DNA from: Scatophagus argus
Lineage: Eukaryota > Chordata > Actinopteri > Scatophagidae
Length of the DNA: 64,000 bases
Assembly: GCF_020382885.2 (NCBI RefSeq)
Contig: NC_058513.1
Location: forward strand, 7,510,774 to 7,574,773
Reading direction: 5' to 3'
Shown here piece after piece: positions 1,560 through 59,628 of this stretch (positions are counted from its first letter, which is position 1; the number at the start of each line of letters is the position of its first letter). Below the pieces are notes generated by a model. The model was not told the origin of the DNA. It did no database searches and saw nothing but the letters and a program-made list of their open reading frames with translations. The position numbers and the translations under genes were made by a program.

Positions 1560-4238
1560 TCATTTCTTACTGGCTATCCTCCGCTTCCTGGTGGCCAGCA
1601 TGTCGTAGAAAGGATCCCTGCTGATGCTCGCTCTGTGGAAAGAGATGAAAGAACGAATTACTGATCAACCATTTCTAACTGTTTATGTCAGCGTTAGATA
1701 CACTGTTTAAACTAGTGTATACAGGACCGATTTGACAAGTAAAAAAATGCACAAAGCTGTAGAGAGAAAAAAACATAAGCAATCAATTTTTGAAGTTTAG
1801 ATAAATTTGGATGTACATATTTTTGGAAATATGCCAGTAAAGTACCTAATTTTGTACTTAAGCATAGTACAGATTTACTTAGATTGATTCACTGCTGACA
1901 GGAATAACGCTGAGTAACCTGCTGCTTTCTCAGCAGCAGAACAATGAACACACTGAGACCACCGGTGTTACATACACATAACGGGGACAACAAGAGCGGA
2001 GGTTGGACCAGATGAGTCAGGTGGGACAGTGTGTATTCGCTGTGTGTGTGTGTGTGTGTTTGCATGTGTGTGTGAATCTGCTGACCACACAACAGTCTGC
2101 CGCCCCAGCAGCTGAGTCAAGTGAGAGTGTGTTTGAGGCAGCACAGCTCTGTCTTGCTGACTCCAGTCTGTGACAGGAAGACACTTTACAAAGTGCAACT
2201 GGACTAAAACACCAAGAGACTCCTGGTTCACATTTGTTCTTGTAGACTAAAAGCACTCCAAGGCCTGCAACAGGAGTGTAAAACATGTAATACAGCTTAT
2301 GTCATCTGAAGGTCAATTGGCTAAATCTTCCAAACTGAGAGAAACGACCACCTCTCTTCCCTTTCTACTCACTTTAATTGTACATGAAGCAGACGCACTC
2401 AGATTTCCAGTAACTTAGCAGAGAAAATCCATCACTTTCATTAAAGGATACACACTTGTCAATACTAAGTGGTTTTTTAATATCATTAGAGCATGGAAGC
2501 TTTGTGTAATATGATTTCTGCTGTGATATTGATCATATTTGTTGGTGAAGCTGCAGCTGAGTGGATGATAAGCAGCAAACTCATCAATTACCCACTGGGT
2601 CCAATTTACTGCTGCCTACCTTCACTCTCCTTTGGTTAACAAGGGATATGACAGATCAGGTGAGCCCAGCAAGGCATAGTGGCTGAGTAGGTGTGTGTGT
2701 GTGTGTGTTTTTCTTTGCTTGCAGGGTCCTAATCAAAAGGGAAGTGAGCTTATCCAGCAGGGCAGAAATCACCACTGAGTGTTATCTGTGTGGAAGTGTG
2801 AGAAACAGAGTCAAGTTTAGTCACCAGCCTGTGTGTGTGTGTCTGTGTGTGTGTGTTGCTGCTCTGCACATTTCTGATTAAGCTCACAGCTCTGTGTGTA
2901 AGTGTGTGCACTGGGGTCTCACAGTCAAGGTCAGACATGAGAATGTGTCACATGGGAGCAGCCCGGTGTTGGCTAAGTGCCCTCTCAGTGTAAATGGATC
3001 CACACTAACACGACATCTCTTACTTGATGGATTTGATCCACTCCTCTTTCTCCTCCGGCGTGGGGGCTGATATCCTGTACACTACATGGTTGCCCTCCAC
3101 GACCCGCCCGTCCGCCTCTGTCTTGCAGGCCTTGATCACCTGACCTTTGTGGTTGGGGTTGTAGAGCTCAAAGCAGTTCTGGGGAGACACCAGGAGGCAA
3201 AAATAAAATCTCCGAGAAAATACGAGTTTTGTTTCACACAAAGTTTATGTTGTCTGTGTGAATTTAAAGGAAATAAAGATGGATTCAGAGTGTCTGGTGT
3301 TGCTCCTTACAGGTTTCCTGGGCTCGTCCACCTCTCTGATACTGAGGTTCTCTAGGGGAATAATCCCACGAGGCTCTTTATCCTGGAAACACACACATAT
3401 TAAGACAACAGTAAGCATCAACAAGTCACTCATTCAGTGTGTACACACATAGGGACAGGGACAAGGGCAAAGGCAGTATGTCATGAGGAAATGATCCAGC
3501 CTATATAATATCACATATCACCACCAGATCAACATTTCAATAGTTCAATCAAATAACATTTTTATGCTGCAAGCAGCACCTTCAATTTCCACTGCAGGAA
3601 AACTGAATATTTTGTCACCTTAACACACTGAGTCTGAAAGAAGCAAGTAAAAATCAAGGTGGTGATAATAGCACGCTGGAGGTTTTTATTCATCCTGGTC
3701 ATGTAGGGGACAGCACCCGAGGGGGACGTAACACTACACCTTCCATCCTCCAGTGACTGCTATTCTGTCTGCAGGGCCAGATGTGAAGGGCTTTTTTGTA
3801 TGTGGATGGGTTTGGGGGGGCGTGGGGACCTTGAGGAACAGCCCCGTGGCCCACTTGTCATCTTTCTGCTAATGATGGGGCGCAGCGGGGGGGAGGAAAT
3901 GCCCCGGGACGGCTGGCTGTGTGTGTGCCTTTTAGACTGTGTGTGCGTGCATGTGTGTGTGTCTTCACTGCAGTGTGTGCTTGTGTGTGCTTTTTTTTGG
4001 GGGGGGGGGGGTGTTCTCAGAAATGGGGATCCTGAGGTGAAGTGTGGGGTGACAGGCAATGAGTTGGGGGAGGCACTTGGCTTGCGGCTTAGCGGTGCCA
4101 GATGTGTGCCGTAGACATTGCAGATGTTTCCCATGATGCCTCATGTTAATTGCTGGAGTGAGGTTCATTTAGGTCAAAGGGGCTGCATCTGTTAAAGAGG
4201 CAGAGCTGGAAGGCAAAGACCTCTGTTTTAATTCTGCA

Positions 4239-4269
<31 letters not shown>

Positions 4270-7200
4270 TGAAGTTTGTGAGGGAGACACACATTTCATG
4301 TAATTTTTGTTTCCACTTTACTTAAACATCACACATCAGCTATTTCACTCATACTAGACTACCAATGAATTAAATATTTTAAAATGTGAAACGGCATCTG
4401 TTGCGAGTTTTAAAGAAATAATTTGGTCAGCAGGCTGTTAGCTTAGCTCAGCATAACATCAAGAGATGTACAAAACTGTGCAAAAACCAGCGTGTAAGCA
4501 GCAAATTTTGGTTTGAAGTGGCGATATATCCTGGACAATTTCTTGAGTGAGTTGGCCAGGCAATCAGTGGGTACTACAGCCAAGCAATGGTGTGGCACAT
4601 GACCCTTATAAAACCCTCAAATTGTTGTTTTCACAGTTAGATTTTTTGACAGATTACACAACCAACATACAGTGTGTTAATTAGCGAACTTAACAGATGC
4701 AGGTAAACATCAGCTTAGTTTCATATTTAGTGTAGAAATTTGAGAGTGGTTTCAATCTTCTTATCTTACTGTGTAAATAAAACAAAAAAGCAAATGTTCT
4801 AAAATGCTAAACTATTCCTTTAAGACAGACTGCAATCAAATCTGTTTCTTTTCTGCAAAAAAATAAATATTTGTGTAATATGCATTCTAGTAAGCAACAG
4901 AAGAACTCAGATTAGGTTTCAAAACGACAGTCATGCGTGTATGATGGCCTATACTCCATTCTGACACACATGAGCACACATCAGTGTGACTTACTGTTGT
5001 GTATTCAAAGTAATAAAGGCAGTTGTCAGTCAGAATGAACCACCGTCTCTTCCACGTCTTCACCCTGCCACCTGCGGAGAGAAACACACGACATTTGAGT
5101 CCAAGCTGAAGAGGTGTTGGCGTTTGTGCATGCAGTGGCTAACCTGCAGGAGACCTCGGCTCCACGTGCCACATCTGGTTCTGATCATCAGCTCTCTGCA
5201 TTATTAGGCTCAATCAGAGGCTGGATACTCCCTCCAGCACCCCCTTCCAGTCTCAGGAGATGGGTGCCTGGGGGCTCTGCAGGCGAGCGCAGAGGAAGGG
5301 GGGTGGCTGGCTTATGAAAACTGTTATCAGACATGTACATACTACATATGTGTGACAACTAAAGCAGGTGTGAGTACAAGTAAACATCTGAGTGTAGGAA
5401 TTACATATAATGATATGTAAAATATAAGCATACAACAGGCACAAAGTCTCCATCTGCCTCCATCATCAGATAAGAGCAGATTATTGGGATTACTGGATTT
5501 TCTGTTCATTACAGTATCAGTGATGCAATGAGTAATTTACCTTTGTAATCAAAGGAACATATCGTGGCTGATGTCAATGTACAGTCTGCAATATGTGCAC
5601 CATAATAACATGTTTGCTGACTTCACAGAATGAGCACAAAGCCGCCGTTACTGATGTAATCAATATGTAATGTTCACTTGACCCAGATTTTCATTCTATA
5701 CTGCTAGCTAGAGTAAAATCCAACATCTACATTATGTATGAGCACTGTTTACTTTCATATGCACCTTCTGCGTTTTACTCACGCAAATGAAACAAGCACA
5801 GTAAATACGGTCTACTATTGGTGGTTACATATGAAATGGATAAAAGTTTCACCTCGGCTACAGTCAACTCAGATGACAGTTTAGACAGCTGTTTATCCTC
5901 TTAGCCATATGTTTAATTTTATCCTCAAAACTGGACACTTGTTATGGATTTCTGTTGCAGGACCTTCCATGCTTGCACTGTTCTAATGCAAACAAGTCAC
6001 TCATTTGTTTGTTTATTGACACTCCAGAGAGGTCAAGGAAACATTAGAAGACTTAAAACTGTGTGGTGGTTTAAAGCCTTGTATTATTGAACAAAATAAA
6101 AAGGTTTCCCATGATTGTAGTTTAGTGAAAAGGTTATTTGTTGGATGGGGTATCAGCAGAGGTAGTAGGACGGTAGGATGATGATGGATTCAGGCATTAG
6201 CAGTAGGCTCAGTCTTGGTTAACAGAAGTGCTAAAACTGCTAAAATTAGCATGGAATTCCCTAATGGGGAATATTTGACCTAAAATGATGTGGCAAGTGC
6301 AGCCGGTGGGATAGAGAGCAAAGGAGAGAGTAAGAGGGATCTTTACAAGGAGAAAAGAAGCAGCAGCAGTGTAGGGTTCAGGAGAAGAAGAATGAAAACA
6401 GACTTCACTGGATGACCAGCAACACAAGAGGTGCACATTCCCACAGCACAGACTCCAGCAGCTCATTCACTAAAGCTCGAGCATGACTGCGTGCTCTGGC
6501 TGAGAGCTACACAGGAGCTGTAGGACACGTTCAGGGGTCTCTGTTGGTACAGTGTAGGGCCGCAACAAACGATTCAGTTCATTATCAGTCCAACTGCTGA
6601 TCATTTTCACAAGTAATCAGTTGTATAAAATGATTTTCCAGATTCCAAACTGATACCTTCAAATTGCTTCTCTCGTTCCACCAGGAGTCCAAAGTCCCAG
6701 CGCTCTTCATTTATTATCATAAATGACAAAGAAAAGCAGCAAATCCTTTCATTTAAGAAGCTGGAACTGAATAATAAAGGGGATGTTGCAAGTGATACTA
6801 TGCTACATAAACTGTTATCATTTATGCAAAGGCTTCTTGGAATAAAAATTTGTACTCTGCATGTGCACCAACTGAGACGTGCCCTGCGCATCATCCAGCC
6901 TCCTCCAGAGCTACAGAAGGAGTGCAGCCAATCCCTGCGACCTCCAACTCACCCTGGCAGTGAACGATATAACCCATCACCTCATGATGCGGTTTTTATT
7001 TGCTCAAAACGATAACGGCAGCCAATGCATGAGGGTACTCTGTAGTGAACTGTGAGGATGGAGGAAGGAGCGTTACCTACCTCCTAATACATAGATTTAA
7101 GAAGGAACAGCCATCACAGAACAGAATGAAAGAACGAAACAAAAGGTGAAAGGGTGAAAGGTTAGAGAGAGGTGAAGTAACAAAAAATACAGAAGGACTT

Positions 7201-10200
7201 TGAAGAATACAACTAACACAAAAATCACCATGCCAGAGAGCTGGAGAAAGAGAAGTTAGAAGTGTAATCACAAAAAGGAGCATGCTCTAAGTGCGAGCGG
7301 AGACAATACGTGACAAAACAAAGAGGATGAAGGGCAAAGAGACAAAGGACACCTTGATCTCCTTGCATCCTTGTCTAGCTCCATCATAAAGGTGCACAGT
7401 TTTTGAGCTAAAATGGGCTTCCAGAAATCATGAGCTAACTAAAATCTTTGTAGTGCTAATGTTGCTACTAACACTACAAGTCATCTGTGCACTAATACCA
7501 GTTTCTTGAGAGGAATCAACTTAACTTAATTACATCTCAAATGATGCTGCAGGATTGGTGACTACTTTCACTCAGGCTTTTGTCAAAATGGACTGTGTAT
7601 TGATTGCAGCAGTTTTACTGAAATGAAATTTACCTTAAATCCTTATAAATTTGGTATTAGCATCAGCTCACATCCGTCAGAATACATTTTGCATCATCTG
7701 TTAGTGAAAATGTAGGCCTTAATGTTAAATTTTAAAAAACTAGTAGAAGTAGGTTTTCAGCTATTTTCAGTATGTTTGGCCAAAACACCTTCCTCCAACA
7801 TGGCCACCTGAAAGCTCATTAGAAACACAAATAAACAAAGCACAAAAAAAAAAACACTCACCACAAGCAAAATGATGGACAGTGTTTCTAGTGACAACTG
7901 ATGCTAAGGTTCTCCTGACATAGGTAAACACAATCAAGGTAAATATAGTAACTCAAAATGCACATACCAAGCTTCAAGAGCCAGCCTTCTCTGTCAGGGT
8001 TGAAGAAAGTGTGTGTCAGATCATTCCCATCATCCTCTGGGATTTTGAAGGGCTCATTTTTGATGCTGTCGTAAAGGTTCTGCAGGCAGTGGCGAAAAAC
8101 TTTTAATCAAAAAGGCAAACAGTTGAGGAAATGCTTCTCTTGGATGGAGTAGGTGTGACAGAATGGTCACGGAGATCAATCATCAAACATGCACGCTCAT
8201 TATAGAGAAATCCTCACCCTGAGAAGCTCCTCTGGCAGATCTCCTCCTTCATTGATGCCTCTGTTCATAGAGATAAATCGCTCCACAGGCGGCTTGTCTC
8301 TGACGTTAGGGTTATGTAGGCTGGTGTTCAGCATGATGATAGCAAATGAAAGCACGTAGCAGGTATCTGCATCAGTAAGGGAATCAGATAGGTTACAAAA
8401 GTGTATACATGTCCTGCTCAAGAGAACCCATTTATACCTGGCATCAACATGAAATTTGTATTTGGATATCTATATATCTATAGCATTTATCACAACTAGA
8501 TCGCTTCTTACTACCACATATAAATGAGATACAATTAATTATGCAACACAGAGCACTACGTGTAACGAACAACAATTAACAGACAATGACATGAGCTGCC
8601 AACAAGGTCAAAAATAGGACATAATTTCCAATTATTGGCCTATTATATCAACTCCCTTTAATTTTTCACTTCTTGCACATATTGCCATTTGTAATAGGTA
8701 ATAAGTCATTGGCAGTCAAAAGACTGTGATTTAGTCTCTATTTTTCTAGTGCACCAATTGTGGAAACCCAGATTTTTTAATAGTAATTTTTAATTTATAC
8801 TGTGTTTGAAAAAAATGTGTGCGGAATAAGTGAGAGAAAAAGTGGAGGGCAGGCAGGGCTTTAATTTCTCTACTGTGTGTTAATGTTTGGACACATGGGC
8901 CACTGGCTGTCTGTAAATGAATCATTCATTCCTCTCTGTCTGTCTCCTCTCGCTGACACACTTTGATCCTGGCTGTCCTGTGCCGCCTATTGTCTGCCTG
9001 CTAACACACACTCTCTATAAAAAATAGAGGAGCTTGGCACACTGTGAGCACACTGGGGCAAGAGATGTTGGCAACTGCCAGAGGAATGTCACTGTAATCA
9101 AAAAATTAATGAGCATGATGAAGCACTGAGAGAAACGGCTGGTCGTTCCCTTGGTAATTAAAGATTCCTGATCATTTTAAGGCTTTTATGGGCTCAGTGT
9201 GCAGTTACTGCTACACACATGGCTCTAAAGCTGCCATTCTGCCCTGCACCCACAACAGTCACACATGCACGTCAGCCTATGCACTGAATGTGTAAAGCTT
9301 TTTTACATCACAGTTATCGCATATGTGCTGATTATTTAAACATTTAAACAAAGTCCAACAACTCCTTTCGCTTTAGCATAAGAGGAGTTTGTCATCAGGA
9401 AAGCATCTGAAAACATTAAAATACAGCATGAAGGACAGTGACAATGTTAGTAGCTACTTTTTTATCTTTTTCTTCAGTCTCTCTTCCAAACTTAGAGTCA
9501 ACTGAATGGTGTGCAGGCACTGTTTGAACAGAGACAAATGGAAACCAGGAAGAAGGACACAACTTGGAGTATTTCCTCCACGGGAACAAATGCACACTCA
9601 ACGATCTTATACACAAAAGGTTGCTCTACAATGTCTTCAATTATTTAGGGACTGTTGTAGTTGTAAGGCTTTGTTTATTACAAGACCATGTATCACTCAG
9701 CCTGGTTGAGTCTCTCTGAATAATGCATGTCCCCTGTTGGTTGCTGGTTGTTGCCAACTCTTGTGGCTTAATGATTGACATGCATTAAAAAAAAAAACCC
9801 AAAACATCACTGAATGCATCCTGGACCTTGAGGCAGTGCCTCTATTAGCACATTAGGCCAATGCATTAACTTTGTCCCATATATGGATTTCACAATTTAG
9901 TCATACAGTCAACTTGACTATTGTTCATCAATGATTACCGCTCGACCAAAAGTACTTATCTTTTACTGTTTCCATGGGCTAGATGGAAACATTAGCTCAA
10001 AGTAATGAATTAAATGATTAGCTAAGATTATTAAATGCTTGGCTAAAAATATTGGATAGATTATTGGTACTGAAATAGTTAAATGAATTGGATAAAAAAA
10101 ATATATATATATGAAAAAAAATATGGACAAATGTAAATGTCAACAGATAATGAATAATAAAGGGGCTGTGGAGTTTACATGATAGCAGCCTACTTTGTGT

Positions 10201-13200
10201 CTCACCTGTCGATTGGAAGACTCCAGGGTTGCACTGGCAGTACCGCGAGGCAAACGCCTCCATCATACGGTCGATCTTCTGGGCTTCACCTGGCAAACGG
10301 AAACTCCACAGGAACTGCCTATAATTAGAGGGAGAAGTGGGAGGTTTACTTTGTGATGCCACAGTGAGTCAGTGTGCATAGGACATAGTCATTACTGTAA
10401 CTATCATAACATTTTTGTGCTAAGTTGTTTGGGTTAATCATTCTGCTGACCGTAGTGCCTGGACGAGGTTGAGGTCTGCAAATTCATGCAGCTCCACAAA
10501 TGCCTGCAGCACCTTGATGTTGAAGTCATCCCTGGTGGAAAAAAAAAGCAACGATGAGGAAAAACTGGATTTCCAATACTATTCTATCTCTAATCCATTG
10601 TTTTCCTTTTTTGAAAGAAGAAGAAGACCATCCAGGCGATATCAAAACACCTCAGAGAAGATTTAAGATAACTGAACACAATGTGAACCCAGAAGACAGG
10701 GTGGGGAAAACCATATTTCCTCCGTGAAAGCATTTTTCAACCTGAATTCCTGTTTTTCAGCATTCCTGTCATGTTTATGCCCTTATTCATACCGGGCGCT
10801 GAGTGTGGAGTCTGGAAGCAATTTAAACAGCTGGCCAGTGCTGAGTGTTTCTCCACCCTGAGGGGGGGGGAAACCATGTGTTTCACTGACCAAAAACAGC
10901 TAAAACTGAACCCACACAAGCTCCTATTTGTCAGAGGTTTGTTTGGCCATCAGATGGGCTTTTGGCGGAAAAGTCAACAGTTGGTCTCAGGCTGTGGTCA
11001 CAGCTTCTCTGATCCTGTTTGTTGTACATCAGGGTCCATGATCCCAATCCTGTATCATCTTTATGTTGTGTATTGTTCAAATGGAACCAGGAATTTTCAG
11101 ACTTAGCGTTTTGTGTTTTTTGTGGAAAGACACAGGAAAGGTTGAGAAGAGTACAGAGAATTTTGGCTTACATGAAACAAACAATAAACTTGTACTGCAA
11201 AAACATTAGTGGATTATTTGAACTAAGATTTGTGGGCTTTTCCTCTCCACTGGGTGTTTGTGACTGCACTGAACCTCATACTGCTGTCTACAGTCAAATT
11301 AATCCCATGCTGTGAGGTTTATACATAAGATTATTGCTATAAATACATTTATTACAAGAGACACCTGAATGTGGTTTACTGTTTGTAGAAAATGAAATAA
11401 ATATTGCATACTTATATACCTGTCTCAGTGTTATAACAGTGGGTGTATTGTGTGTGACAACCAAAGCAATGAGAAGGTCTGGTAGCATAAAATTAAGAAT
11501 CAATCACCCATTTAGTCTGCATCCATCTCCCACTATTCATTATCCTTCTGGCTATTTTTCTCTTGCACCCCCTCTCTCTTTTTCCCTCCTGTTGTCCCTT
11601 ATCTTCATCTCCTTCTCTGCTCAGCATGTAATGATAGGTTTCTGCTCCTTGCATAGACTCAATTAGTATAATTACTGAGAGTAAACTCTCAGCACATGTT
11701 TAGTGTGATTTCCACTGGGTAGGTGGCCTTTTTGATGATCTTCTCTGTGACTAAAGCCTATTGCTAACAAGAGGAGTCCCCAGAGTCCCCATCCCCAGCC
11801 ATCAGCCCATTCACAGAGGCTGTTTATGTGTGTGTTTTTTCACTGTTTCTGACACTGTTCATCTGTCTACAGATGTACAATCAGCGCCTGTACTCAGGTA
11901 AAGTGAAGGCAGTTGCTGATGTGACTTCCTGGAAAGAAGAAGTTAAGAGAATGCAGCAATTATTAAGACTTTTCTTATGATGACATGTCCAGAACATCAG
12001 AACCAGCAGTTCTGCATTTAATCAAGGTCTCTTTTATAAGACTACATCCTTTAGCCAAACAAGTTTTTCTATGCCAGGAAACAAAATGACATTAAACTTG
12101 GCTTGTACACACAGGAAAAACAGTGGGTTTGTGACCAACACAAAGCACCAAAATGAGCTTCAGTTGTGTCAGTGTTTGGAGGGCAGTCAGCCAAACATAC
12201 AGACTCACTCACTCTACCCCTGGATCACATTTTCTCCTGTGACATGTGCAGTGCTAATCATTCACTTTGTGGCGTTGTTTCTGTTCTACAATTCTCAGAG
12301 ATAACATGTCAATCAGAGAGTGCAGCTTACCTGTGATGCTTTTTTAATTGAGATTGAGATAAGGGGCTGAGCCCAACACTTGAAAAACAGCCCCATTCCA
12401 ATATTTTTGTCTAAATAGTGTATATAAAGGGTACGATACGTGTTGCACATGCTTAAACTCAAAACAATCTTTAATTTAAAATAGCTTTTTCAGATGAGGT
12501 ATTTCACAGATACGAGTGTAACAAAGCCATGTGTCTGTGCCCAATAAATTTGGGACACTAAGCCTTTGACGTGCACTCATATATCTCTAATCTCTATCTA
12601 ATCTCACCTTTAGATAACACCATCCATCTCGCTAGCTGTAGACTTCCCTTCTACTTCATTATCCAACAGTCTGGCCTGAAATGTGAGCAGCTGGATGGCC
12701 TTTTTACTGCCAGTTATAAATCCACATGGGTGGACTATGACAACAACACACCCACTCTAACTCAAAGATTCATGTTGGGGGGTCAATCACGTTCTCCCTC
12801 TTTAATCAATAAATCCAGCCCATAATTCCCTTCTCTAATCATAGCAGGAGCATGAATCTCATGTAAAGAGGACTTTCTCCTGCAGCCTGATGGATGCTCT
12901 GTCTCACCGCTCGCCTAAGTAGTCTCCGATGACGGTCTTGTTGAGGCCCTCGCCTTTATAGAGGAACTGGGCGATGTCTTCGGGAGTGTGCTGAAGGAGG
13001 TCATTCTCCAGCAGGAACTGGATTCCCTAAGGAGGAAAAAGAGAAAACAGAATGGCTTTCTGACTCAGTTGAGAAGGGATGCTGGAAAATGACAGTCTCT
13101 GAAAGTCATGAAGGCTACCAAGATATCAGAGGCTGTGTTGGTTGATGATGAAAATATGAGGATGTGCAGTACCTTCTTTGGATCCATATTGAATTTCTTC

Positions 13201-16200
13201 CTGCCCATGGCGATCTGTTTGTTTCTCTGAGATGTTTTACTGCAATGCAGGAAGAGAAATGTAGAGATTAAATTCAGCTATTCTAATTATTATTTACCCT
13301 AAGCAACACTAAAAATAACAGACTGTCAAGTAGCTCAATGTCAAATATAACAATATTTTTTATTTATAGTCGCAACTGAAAACGTTATTTCCTGCCACAT
13401 CTGTTCTACCCATTATGTGTGTATATGCTCGAGTCTTATCTGAAAAAACACACACATTACACACACAAAAACTACAAAAAACTCTGTCAACAGAGTTCAT
13501 CTGTGTGTGTGTGTGAGTGTGAGTGTGTAATGCAGATGATGCAGTGACAGATGAGAGCACAAAGCAGATATGACCTCAGTGACAGACGGCCACCCTGTTT
13601 ATGTATGAAGAACATGCCTGATTGATTTATACTGGGCACACAGTACGCTGCACATTGACTGTCTTTGTTTGTTTTACGCAGCTGTTGGACCAAGTCTAAC
13701 ATTTTGCCAAACAATAGGTGTAATAACTGTTATAATATTTTATCCATACAAACAATCAGGCAGATATAGCAGCCTGATATTGTTATCACATAAAGCCCTT
13801 GGCATATGTCGTTCAAAACAAAAAAAAAGGCCTTTGCAAATCATCTGTCTTTGACATCTCTGCCAGGACATGAAAAACCTAAACTGATATAGACCCACAA
13901 GTCTGTCTATCTATGACTCCAGGTTAAGAAAAAACCCCCAAAACAAACAGGATCTGTGTTATTTAGGACTGAAAAGGTCATTGAAATTTGGGATTTTAAG
14001 TAACTTGAGGGGCACTTTACATTTTACAAATTCATGTTAGCAGTGGATGACCCTTTAGTAAAGCATCTTTGATTTGCTTTTAGAGATCAGCTATACATAA
14101 TACACAATACATTTAGAAACATTTTTCGTTGCTGCCTGTGCACAGAAGACTTAGAATCAGCCTTTAGGCTACCACACAGAGAAACTACAAGACACACTAT
14201 TCTCTAAATGAATAATAAAATATCACTGAACTAATATGTGGTAATATATCCAAATTACCAAAATAGACATACCCATCTATATATTTTTTTTTCAAGCCAA
14301 AAAGCTCATTGAAATGCTATATTACATACATCATATGCACAACCTCCAGCCTCTTAGCTTTGCTCACTTACCTTTCTCCAACACACGTCAGTTGCTCGAT
14401 CTCCGTCATGACCTCAGCTATCTCAAACTTCAACCTCTGAGAGATAAGAGTGAAACATGTCACAGTGGGTTTCTTCCACTAGGTTAAATCAGGAACGACA
14501 GAGAATGGACCCAGTGGAAAATACATAACTTTTGGGGAGCAAGAAAGATGTACTGTAGGGAATTTGCATTACTTACAGTATGCAAATACAGTGCAACAGC
14601 AGATAGGCTGAACATGAATAAACTGTATTCAGAAATAATTCTAAGTTTCAGTTGACTGTATGTACTTTATGGGCTTATTTGCTTGAACACACACCTCAAT
14701 ATCATCAAGCAGCTCTCGCTTCCTGCGTCGAATGTTTGACAGCTCATCCCTCTCCTCCAGGGACAGATCCTCAGGAACTGAAACACATGATGGAGGAACC
14801 AGTTCACATCACTATACCCTCTCAACTCCCCGCAGATGAGAGAAAAAAGAGGTGAGCCCTAAAAACAAGCTATGATGGAGTTCACAACCAGACATGGATA
14901 ATCAAAAAGGAGCCATCCTCTTCATACAGTGACGGGACTGCTTCTGCACTGGCTCTTTCACCCTTCAGCTGGAATAATACATGTTAGGAGCCTACACGTT
15001 CATCTTAATTAAGCAGAGACAGAGAGAAGGCGAAGGGTCTTAATTATTCCACTTGAAAGTGTTTTGCCCCCTCCCTCCTTCTCCACTTTGCTCTGGGGAA
15101 AATTCTATTAATAAAACTAATCCAGATTACGTTTTCTTTCATTAAAAGTGAATTTGGTAATTTAACGTGGCCTACGACCCTGATCCCCTGGCTGCAAGGA
15201 TTTCAGAGCTCCAGGCAGAAATGAGCAAGAGGAGGGGATGACTCGTTTTCTGCTGGGTGTTTCCTCCCCCTTGTTCTTCACTCTTGTCTTTCTGTCTCAG
15301 TCTTGTTTTTCAGTCTTTTATTCCGCTCCACTCTCTATCTCTGTTTCACCCACGCACATTTTATTTCTCAATTTTCTTCATCTTTCTGAAGCACAGAGAG
15401 CCTGTGCCAATCTTGCTTCATTAAGCCAGCTTAGAGGCAGAAAACGCAAATCTCTCAACAGGAAAATGGCACATCTAATATCACAGCCGTCGCTTTGTGC
15501 CTACATGTTTCTAAAGGAGAGACGAAAAAAAAAATAACATCACTTGCTATTTTCCCTTGCTGGCGGGAAGTAGCGCCAATTAAAGCAAAACAAGGTCACT
15601 GGGCTCAAGAGAAAGCATTCAGCCCAATTTTAATTCAACAGCTTGTAAAAGAGTTGCATTCAGGGGAGTCAAGTATTGTTGTAGACGGTATTCACATTAA
15701 CACTGAGACAAAAAGAGCTTCCTAACCTATTTGGTAAATCCTGAAGCACTGTGATGAGGGTCAGGTACAGACAGGCAGAAAGAGCAGAGGGATTTCCTTT
15801 GTTTTTAAAAGATGAGAGAGAGCTATAATCACACATTGTCTCAGTATGAGTATGAACATAAAGATGTTAATTAGCGTTTCTAACCTCGGGCAACCTCACA
15901 AAACTTATGTAATACAACTGTGAGTAAGTGCATTTAATCAAGCTCTAAAGCGATTTAGCAATCTGAAAAAAGTTTCAAGCCTGTTTGACACAATTCTTTA
16001 AAGTTCAACATCAACATCAACATCAGTTCAACATTGAGAAATCGTCTAACTTCCTTTCTTGCTGAGAGTTATGAAAAGACTGGCACCACTCTTATATCTG
16101 TCTGGTATATATAAGCCATTTGGTTTAGCATAAGGACTAGAAAGGGGGAAAGTGCATGGCTCTCTTGTAATCTGTGATTTACAGCTGCTTCATATTCTAT

Positions 16201-35404: not shown

Positions 35405-39078
<3,674 letters not shown>

Positions 39079-56800: not shown

Positions 56801-59628
56801 AAATTGCCCTGAATAAATCCATAAATCCATAATATGTACAAAGCGTTCTTCTGCGTCTGCTTGGCAGGCACTAACTGCTTGCTGAAGATAATAAGTAAGA
56901 AAAGGGAGGGAGACAAAAGAATAAATGAAGGTGTGGGAGGATTTCATTTTGCATTAATGTGCTCTGTGTTGTGAGCAGGCTTCTGTGTAGTCGGACTGGA
57001 TGCAGAGTTGAGCTGATGTAGTCTCTGTTAGGCTCCAGATGTGTGTGTGTGTGTGTGTGTGTTATATGCAGAAACCCTCGTACCTGACATCACAGCACTC
57101 AGCAGGTTTGGTGAGACAGGAGGCCGTCAGATGATTTGGCGTCTGATGTTGGATCATTGATCTCTTCATTTCCGTATTGGCTGTTAATCTTACACTTTCT
57201 CTCTCGCTCTGTGATGTTCTGGTGGTTCATGCCAAAAACCCGACTCTGTTTGATCCCATTTTTCGATGCAGTTTTTATAATAACATTTTATCAAATTACA
57301 GTGTAAAAGTTGTTGCTCCTAGTGATGAACTTACAGAGAATATCACCAAATCTGCTGCTCTGTTCAGCTTTACTGAGCTTTATGTTGAGTTTCGGTCCAC
57401 AACTTTAGTATTTTGGTTCACTCTTGCATTTTTACAACTGAGCCCCACCCACTTAAAACCAAAGACACTAATACTGTAATGTTAGAAGAGAAACAACTAA
57501 ACCCTGTAAACTGTCCTAATGATGGAGGAATACTTTGTTGTTTTTAGGGCTTTATGTTTACACAGGTAAACAAAAGGTTTTTGAAACCTTAATTTTCTGT
57601 CTTCACATTTCTCATAGGGCAGATTTGTCAACAGTTATAAGATTTATAACTTTTTTATTTGCAGTATTAAGCATGCTATGTTAAAGGATTACAGAAACAG
57701 GCCGCTTATGCTGCTCCTCTGGTCCTCAGCCAGCCTCCCATGTCTTTTCAGCCAGTAAGACTGTCTCTGATATCAGATTAATAGACATCTGGGCGATTCT
57801 CAGATCTTTTTTAAAGCTGCTGTATCTTTTATCCCCCCCCCAACCCCGTGTCTCCATCCAGGCTCTCTGACTGTGGGTCTGGTCCGGCAGTGCCAGACCA
57901 TCCATGGCCGAGACAGGACCTGCATCCCTCCGCAGCTGCCCCCAGAGTGGATCACCACACTCTTCTTTATCATCCTGGGCATCATCTCCCTCACTGTCAC
58001 CTGCAGCCTCCTGGTGATGTCACGCTGGTGCCGCGAAGCTGCTCGATATGCCCGATGGATCGCCTTCAGTGGGAGTAGGTGTTAATTGTCACGTCTCGTC
58101 TTCTTCAATTCATCATTATGCATATTAAAGTCGCCAAGTTAAAGCACCACATCAAGGTTAGAAATATACTGCTGCTTGAGGCAAACTGCACATTGTAGTT
58201 TATAAAATGCCAGTGAAGGTAAGAGATGTTGCTTAAGAATCTCCTGTGAAATAAATCAAGTGTAGCTCGACATCAGAATTCCGCATTTCATTTTAGGAAA
58301 GCTTTTAGTCTGGTAATTATGACCTTCTTGATGAAGTGACTGCAGAGGAGCTCTAACTGATGTGCTGGTTTCTATTTTTACAGCTAAGAGACAGAGTTTG
58401 TCTGTTAGACGGGACCAGAACAGGAGCTGTGCTTCACTTGCCTCTAAATATAGAAAGATAAGAAGACTCTTCTCATGACTAGACTCTCATACTGGGGGGC
58501 AGTTTTTCCACACACATTTTAATATAATGTTTAATAATATTTAGTACTTTATAGTTATTTGGATACCATGAAAAAATGAAAAGTTGAAACAAGAGCTGAG
58601 TTGTCTAGAGCAGTGATTTGTCAACACTTTTTGTCAGGTGGACCCCCACAGGGATGTCAGATGAACCCAAGTACCCCTTCATTGACACTGCCAACTTTTT
58701 CAACCATTTATCACTTTTAACTATTTTAACTGTTTATCTGTTCTGTTAAGCTAATCATGTAACTGTCTGACCATTGCTTTAACTGTTCATTTTAACTAGT
58801 TTTCTGTTACATTTAGCTGACTATTTGAACCATTTATCCATTACTTTTAATGAACCATTTTAGCTGTTTGTCTGCCTATTATCATTCTGTTACATTTTAT
58901 CCATTACTTTGACCTATTTGATAACTTTTCTGTTTCAACCTAGTCTAATACTTGTAGTGATCAACAATGGATCCAATATTTAATTTCACCATTCATCCTG
59001 TACCTTTCAACTGTTTCCTTCAAAGTAACCTTTTACTCTTTAACTGTGTGTCCATTACTTTTAGCTAACTAATCAATATTTGTTCGTTCCTTTAAGGTAA
59101 CCTTTCAGCCACCCATTACTATTAGATAGCATAACTATTTACACATCAACATTAAACTATTTCCACCTTTGATCCATTACTTGTAGCTACTTCAACTGTT
59201 ACTCTTCCCTTAGCTAACTGCTTCAAATCAGCTGCTGGCTTGCTAACTAGTTTTGATGTACCTTCAGCACGTCTCAGTCAAGTGTTGGAGCTATCTTAAT
59301 TTTTGGACATATTTTTAAATGTAAATCTTAATATCTACTTTCAAATCTTTCCTCGTACTCCCAGTGGCACCTCCTGTTGGGAATCACTGGTTTAGTGTGT
59401 TGATCTTCTTCTTCTTTTGCTTCTTTTCTTTTCTCTGTCACAGTGGTCCTCTTCTGTATGGCCGCCCTCATATTCCCGATCGGCTTCTACATCGATGAGG
59501 TTGGAGGGCAGCCATATAAGCTCCCAAACAACACGGTGGTCGGCTCCTCCTACGTACTCTTTGTTCTTTCCATATTCTTCACCATAGTGGGACTGCTGTT
59601 TGCTGGGAAGGTCTGCTTGCCTGGCTGA
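53856..59628 (+). CDS. mosmo: Modulator of smoothened (MOSMO / ATTHOG), complete, 3 coding exons
   Basis: Exons: 53856-53961, 57862-58074, 59444-59628, total 504 nt, 167 aa, the same as human MOSMO (C16orf52). MOSMO is a four-pass claudin-superfamily membrane protein; with MGRN1 and MEGF8 it lowers Smoothened at the cell surface and primary cilium and so attenuates Hedgehog signalling. Membrane segments are at about 6-25, 66-88, 99-120 and 140-160. The first outer loop has the claudin-like pattern W28...GLVRQC46 and C56. The C-terminal third, including YKLPNNTVVGSSYVLFVLS and GLLFAGKVCLPG, is almost identical to human as I recall it. The chosen ATG has A at -3 and G at +4; an in-frame GTG twelve bases upstream was not used. 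Codon M107 is split across exons 2 and 3 (A|TG). Confidence 0.97.
54655..54780. repeat. Dispersed repeat in mosmo intron 1
   Basis: ATATAGCACCTTTTACAATC and AGGTGCTTTACAGAAACCCA with AGAGCCTGAACC resemble a dispersed fish element whose conserved core reads TATAGCACC...GTGCTTTACA. Family name not known to me. Confidence 0.45.
57041..57062. repeat. (GT)11 microsatellite
   Basis: Uninterrupted GT dinucleotides in mosmo intron 1. Confidence 0.95.
58611..59389. mobile_element. hAT-like nonautonomous element (MITE) in mosmo intron 2
   Basis: The ends are inverted copies: the left starts CAGTGATTTGTCAAC and the right, read in reverse complement, starts CAGTGATTCCCAAC. Flanking octamers GTCTAGAG (58603-58610) and GTTTAGTG (59390-59397) agree at 6 of 8 positions, as expected for an aged 8-bp hAT target duplication. 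The inside is non-coding and carries degenerate repeats of a unit around TCCATTACTT (near 58841, 58901, 59051, 59172). The right end is only 54 bp before mosmo exon 3. Confidence 0.75.

Follow-up and report, generated by a model that had tools for sequence, protein, structure and literature searches.

Does a fish cytohesin gene carry the three-nucleotide exon by which mammalian cytohesins gain one glycine in their PH domain? The question is raised by a GAG triplet in the 64,000-nucleotide stretch of Scatophagus argus DNA analysed here (the window), where it lies on the minus strand at 7081..7083 in the sequence TATTAG/GAG/GTAGGT (slashes mark putative exon borders). Mammalian cytohesins with two glycines (2G) prefer PIP3, and those with three (3G) associate with PI(4,5)P2 (PMC10505920, PMC9104363). 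The GAG insertion is stated for mammalian cytohesins 1–3 (PMC9104363), and an alternative exon 9.1 is described for CYTH2 (PMC10505920). The original prediction had taken a glycine-adding 3-nt exon to be a known property of cytohesins, and these sources bear it out. The matches listed in the open literature include no fish study of the cytohesin GAG exon. The CYTH1 microexon is reportedly the subject of a published study.

The gene that contains the triplet runs on the minus strand, and the parts of it that matter here are the following:

1563..14777, minus strand: span of cyth3 coding exons 2–13 (spliced alignment; Sec7 and PH domains in Pfam; grouping with CYTH3 in the tree)

7968..8079, minus strand: cyth3 exon 9, ending ...GWLLKL plus G, phase 1 (spliced alignment; donor G/GTATGT)

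4995..5071, minus strand: cyth3 exon 10 (spliced alignment and sequence)

7081..7083, minus strand: candidate GAG microexon that would add one Gly (2G to 3G), read from TAG/GAG/GTAGGT

The numbers 9 and 10 assume one first coding exon, and the spliced-alignment model covers coding exons 2–13. The gene is cytohesin-3: it has the Sec7 and PH domains (Pfam), and in the tree it pairs with the paralog nearest to it in this genome (support 97/93). Both fish copies join human CYTH3 with support 84/83, at a fork that is not starred and with human CYTH1–4 reference sequences that we take to be correct. The PH part has ten solved-structure matches at E up to 1e-30, nine to cytohesin-3/GRP1 and one to cytohesin-2; the 3G query contains one glycine more than each of the five matches displayed residue by residue. 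About 23 kb from cyth3, a Rac1 exon lies inside the plus-strand reading frame 37826–38239, whose solved-structure matches are Rac1 and then Rac2 and Rac3 chains. This is consistent with a cyth3–rac1 neighbourhood, as presumably exists for human CYTH3 and RAC1. A second plus-strand frame (57771–58085) matches the Pfam family Atthog (Attenuator of Hedgehog, E 6.8e-28), and a search of the whole window for tRNAs and for Rfam families at the gathering threshold gave no match.

The triplet is located in the phase-1 intron (7967–5072, 2,896 nt) that separates the GWLLKL exon from the RVKTWKRRW exon. Its context on the minus strand, ...ctatgtattag/GAG/gtaggtaacg..., places it between an AG and a GT. 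Exon 9 ends in CTT G and exon 10 starts with GT GGC AGG. Skipping of GAG gives CTT G/GT GGC AGG, which encodes LGGRVK (2G), and its inclusion gives CTT GGA GGT GGC AGG, which encodes LGGGRVK (3G). Both the letters of the site and its place between exons 9 and 10 are as the original prediction described them. AG/GAG/GT occurs once in the intron. A fish 3G form might nevertheless arise elsewhere in it, for example from AG/GGG/GT at 5243–5241, which is the only other one of the ten AG/NNN/GT triplets that adds Gly and alters nothing else. This triplet is not GAG, its donor (GTGCTG) is poor, and it stands outside the three best-scoring candidates; the chance that the additional glycine comes from such a site is close to negligible. 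A shifted or NAGNAG acceptor was also considered as its source and rejected, as exon 10 starts at cag/GTGGCAGG, without a tandem acceptor.

A long intron can place GAG between AG and GT in the right frame by chance, without there being an exon. The AGGAGGT 7-mer by itself is common (a mean of 0.26 per shuffled intron; 11 occurrences on both strands of the window versus 6.8 expected), and bare k-mer counting was discarded as evidence, the 7-mer alone not being significant. The full site is a different matter: YAG/GAG/GTRRGT averages 0.0024 per shuffled intron, and the looser YAG/GAG/GTRNGT appears in 12 of 3000 shuffles. Neither form is found in 52,052 intronic bases of the seven cytohesin gene models described below, the borders of the four microexons being excluded. 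The summed splice-site score is more favourable to chance, since 1534 of 2000 shuffles contain some 3-nt exon that equals it, and 267 of 2000 contain one that makes Gly and equals or exceeds it. A spliced aligner supplied with a presumed human CYTH3 query set the third Gly on the window triplet unprompted. Such a placement is weak evidence by itself where introns are long, since shuffled versions of the window intron also received some Gly-making 3-nt exon in 547 cases out of 3000 (and those of the intron at C16:14.02 Mb in 821 of 3000).

The elements that surround the triplet are:

7075..7080, minus strand: 5' splice site of the candidate microexon, GTAGGT (7.0 on the donor matrix, at the 30th percentile among the 73 donors predicted in seven genes)

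7084..7197, minus strand: putative acceptor AG (7085–7084) and the preceding 112-nt AG-free, pyrimidine-rich zone (76% pyrimidine over -100..-3)

7165–7161, minus strand: CTAAC at -82, a candidate distant branch point inside the AG-free zone

On matrices that draw on the predicted splice sites of the seven cytohesin genes (73 donors, 73 acceptors), the donor is ordinary, and the acceptor (-20..+1) scores -2.6, under all 73 predicted acceptors. Two other 3-nt candidates in the intron outscore GAG (5.7 and 5.4 versus 4.5), and neither simply adds Gly. The pyrimidine tract noted in the original prediction is present in the region as a whole but not in its last part: the pyrimidine content falls from 76% to 65% over -20..-3, and the final stretch before the acceptor, aaatctatgtattag, is interrupted by purines (8 of 15). 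The putative 3' splice site of the microexon has a weak local acceptor, yet a long AG-free pyrimidine tract, in which CTAAC is part of ctctctctaac.

Zone length and pyrimidine content were picked as measures after the sequence was seen, so the figures, here and for the paralogs, are guides only: 3 of 2764 background intronic AGs in the seven genes have a zone as long, 1 of 2764 is as extreme in both length and pyrimidine content, at one other AG of the same intron (6077) the AG-free zone is longer (128 nt, 62% pyrimidine), the predicted constitutive acceptors (55, in introns of at least 150 nt) have a median zone of 32 nt with one reaching 112 nt, and 1 of 89 other intronic AG/NNN/GTR triplets combines a zone of 60 nt or longer with 55% or more pyrimidine. 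That no more than one background AG in 2764 equals the tract speaks against a chance origin of the site. Cassette splicing is more frequent in human exons whose AG exclusion zone is 100 nt or longer (PMC1431707). To judge from its letters, the tract looks like that of an alternatively spliced exon whose branch point is distant.

The poor acceptor invites a further reading, namely that an ancestral cyth3 microexon is still legible here while its acceptor has become too weak for use, both cyth3 duplicates now being 2G only. A score under that of every predicted acceptor agrees with such decay, and so does the other cyth3 gene of this genome, which shows no GAG microexon. The donor, however, is intact, and the 112-nt AG-free tract with its CTAAC is well kept, though drift would be expected to break it. 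We regard decay as unlikely. GCATG, which we take to be an RBFOX-type motif, occurs at positions -202 and -150 relative to the microexon and is absent from the 300 nt downstream.

Searched with the exon 9–10 peptide, the assembly that contains the window (570 Mb, 48 contigs) gives 22 matches. Fourteen of these form seven exon-9/exon-10 pairs and define seven cytohesin genes, a count based on these fourteen, the other eight being weaker. The homologous phase-1 intron contains AG/GAG/GTATGTAC in three of the six other genes: ...atctcag/GAG/gtatgtact on C9, ...acatcag/GAG/gtatgtact at C21:14.95 Mb (C21b), and ...cctcag/GAG/gtatgtaca at C16:14.02 Mb (C16a), where the intron has a second AG/GAG/GT with a poor donor (gtcctc). 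The tree labels them cyth2 (C9, L031) and two copies of cyth1 (L032 and L033). GAG is therefore present in four of the seven genes (two cyth1, cyth2 and the cyth3 of the window), and spliced alignment with a 3G query sets the third Gly on these four triplets and on none in the other three genes. That three paralogs carry this triplet in the homologous intron counts against accident, and a chance origin of the window site is very improbable.

The window copy and the cyth1 and cyth2 microexons have in common AG/GAG/GT in the homologous phase-1 intron and a long AG-free zone, which measures 112 nt in the window, 216 nt in C9, 113 nt in C16a and 66 nt in C21b, the last being unremarkable (20 of 2764 background AGs are as extreme). 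They differ in the donor, which is GTAGGTAAC in the window and GTATGTAC in the other three, and in the acceptor, which is better in the paralogs (8.4 in C9, 13.0 in C16a and 2.7 in C21b, a low value at the 1st percentile) and weakest of the four in the window. The summed scores of C9, C21b and C16a are matched by any triplet in 10, 153 and 1 of 2000 shuffles and by a Gly-making triplet in 2, 10 and 0, respectively. The flanks of the window microexon align with none of the three paralog copies past the splice sites; C9 and C21b have 18 of 19 nt in common across the microexon and donor (E 0.035). The proposal that the window triplet is the fish counterpart of the mammalian exon is supported by its frame, position and letters, by the known mammalian event and by the same GAG in the three paralogs, with the weakness of its acceptor as a reservation. 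Four TGC motifs precede the cyth2 GAG at a distance of 15–40 nt, and in this respect the cyth2 exon resembles neural SRRM4-type microexons; no TGC is found within 40 nt upstream of the two cyth1 GAG exons.

The homologous intron contains no credible GAG microexon in the remaining three genes, the two cyth4 copies and the second cyth3. In one cyth4 copy this intron is only 86 nt long. In the other it contains only a poor gag/GAG/gttaca, and exon 10 itself begins with GAGGT. The cyth3 duplicate (C16:12.47 Mb) is the closest gene to the window copy, with 98% identity over 387 columns, and AG/GAG/GT is absent from its homologous intron of 3,212 nt. A candidate relic in this intron (G000:C16:12.47 Mb), cctaatGAGGTAATAC near intron position 804, reads GAG/GTAA; it was rejected as a likely chance match because no AG stands before it.

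The GAG exon of mammalian cytohesin-1, -2 and -3 and the window microexon are the same triplet and add the same Gly in the PH β1/β2 loop, and the distribution of GAG over fish cyth1, cyth2 and cyth3 fits its presence in mammalian cytohesins 1–3, as stated in PMC9104363. The kind of exon is already known from that source, and the window contains a probable fish member of it. The mammalian isoforms are reported from expression, whereas the candidate in the window is read from DNA. Also, GAG is stated for all three mammalian cytohesins, while in this fish one of the two cyth3 copies apparently does without it. PMC8797185 names a long AG exclusion zone, a UCUC tract and a CUAAY branch site as features of fly eMIC exons. 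The window copy shares the long zone and a UCUC-type tract with neural eMIC-type microexons, together with a candidate CUAAY branch site, but it departs from them in having no UGC near the 3' splice site (no TGC within 40 nt upstream).

Taken together, the letters of the locus suggest that the triplet is probably a real but weak, regulated 3-nt cassette exon of a teleost cytohesin-3 gene. Its use would begin at a branch point some 80 nt upstream, from which the spliceosome would scan to the first AG. Skipping of GAG would leave two glycines in the PH β1/β2 loop and a protein that, by the mammalian data, should prefer PIP3. Inclusion would give three glycines and association with PI(4,5)P2, a change of lipid preference that we carry over to the fish protein from mammalian cytohesins (PMC10505920, PMC9104363). 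The poor sequence beside the AG and the three-base size of the exon are proposed as reasons why inclusion would be partial, so that the gene would form both 2G and 3G proteins and the window GAG would toggle between them.

The less expected part of this picture is a possible split between the cyth3 duplicates, one able to toggle and the other apparently 2G. The second copy seems to have lost the microexon. After duplication, the pair may have divided the lipid-sensing switch between them, with the window copy keeping the toggle through a weak acceptor and a distant branch point and the other becoming a 2G-locked, PIP3-only Arf exchange factor. Seen in a single assembly, this division is offered tentatively, at somewhat less than an even chance.

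A 3-nt exon is below the reach of ORF-based and standard gene prediction, and cytohesin genes in fish annotations may therefore be given a single isoform. A natural comparison is provided by the four GAG sites together with the cyth3 duplicate, from which GAG is apparently absent: of two near-identical cyth3 proteins (98% over 387 columns), one would be able to switch its lipid preference by splicing, and the other perhaps would not.
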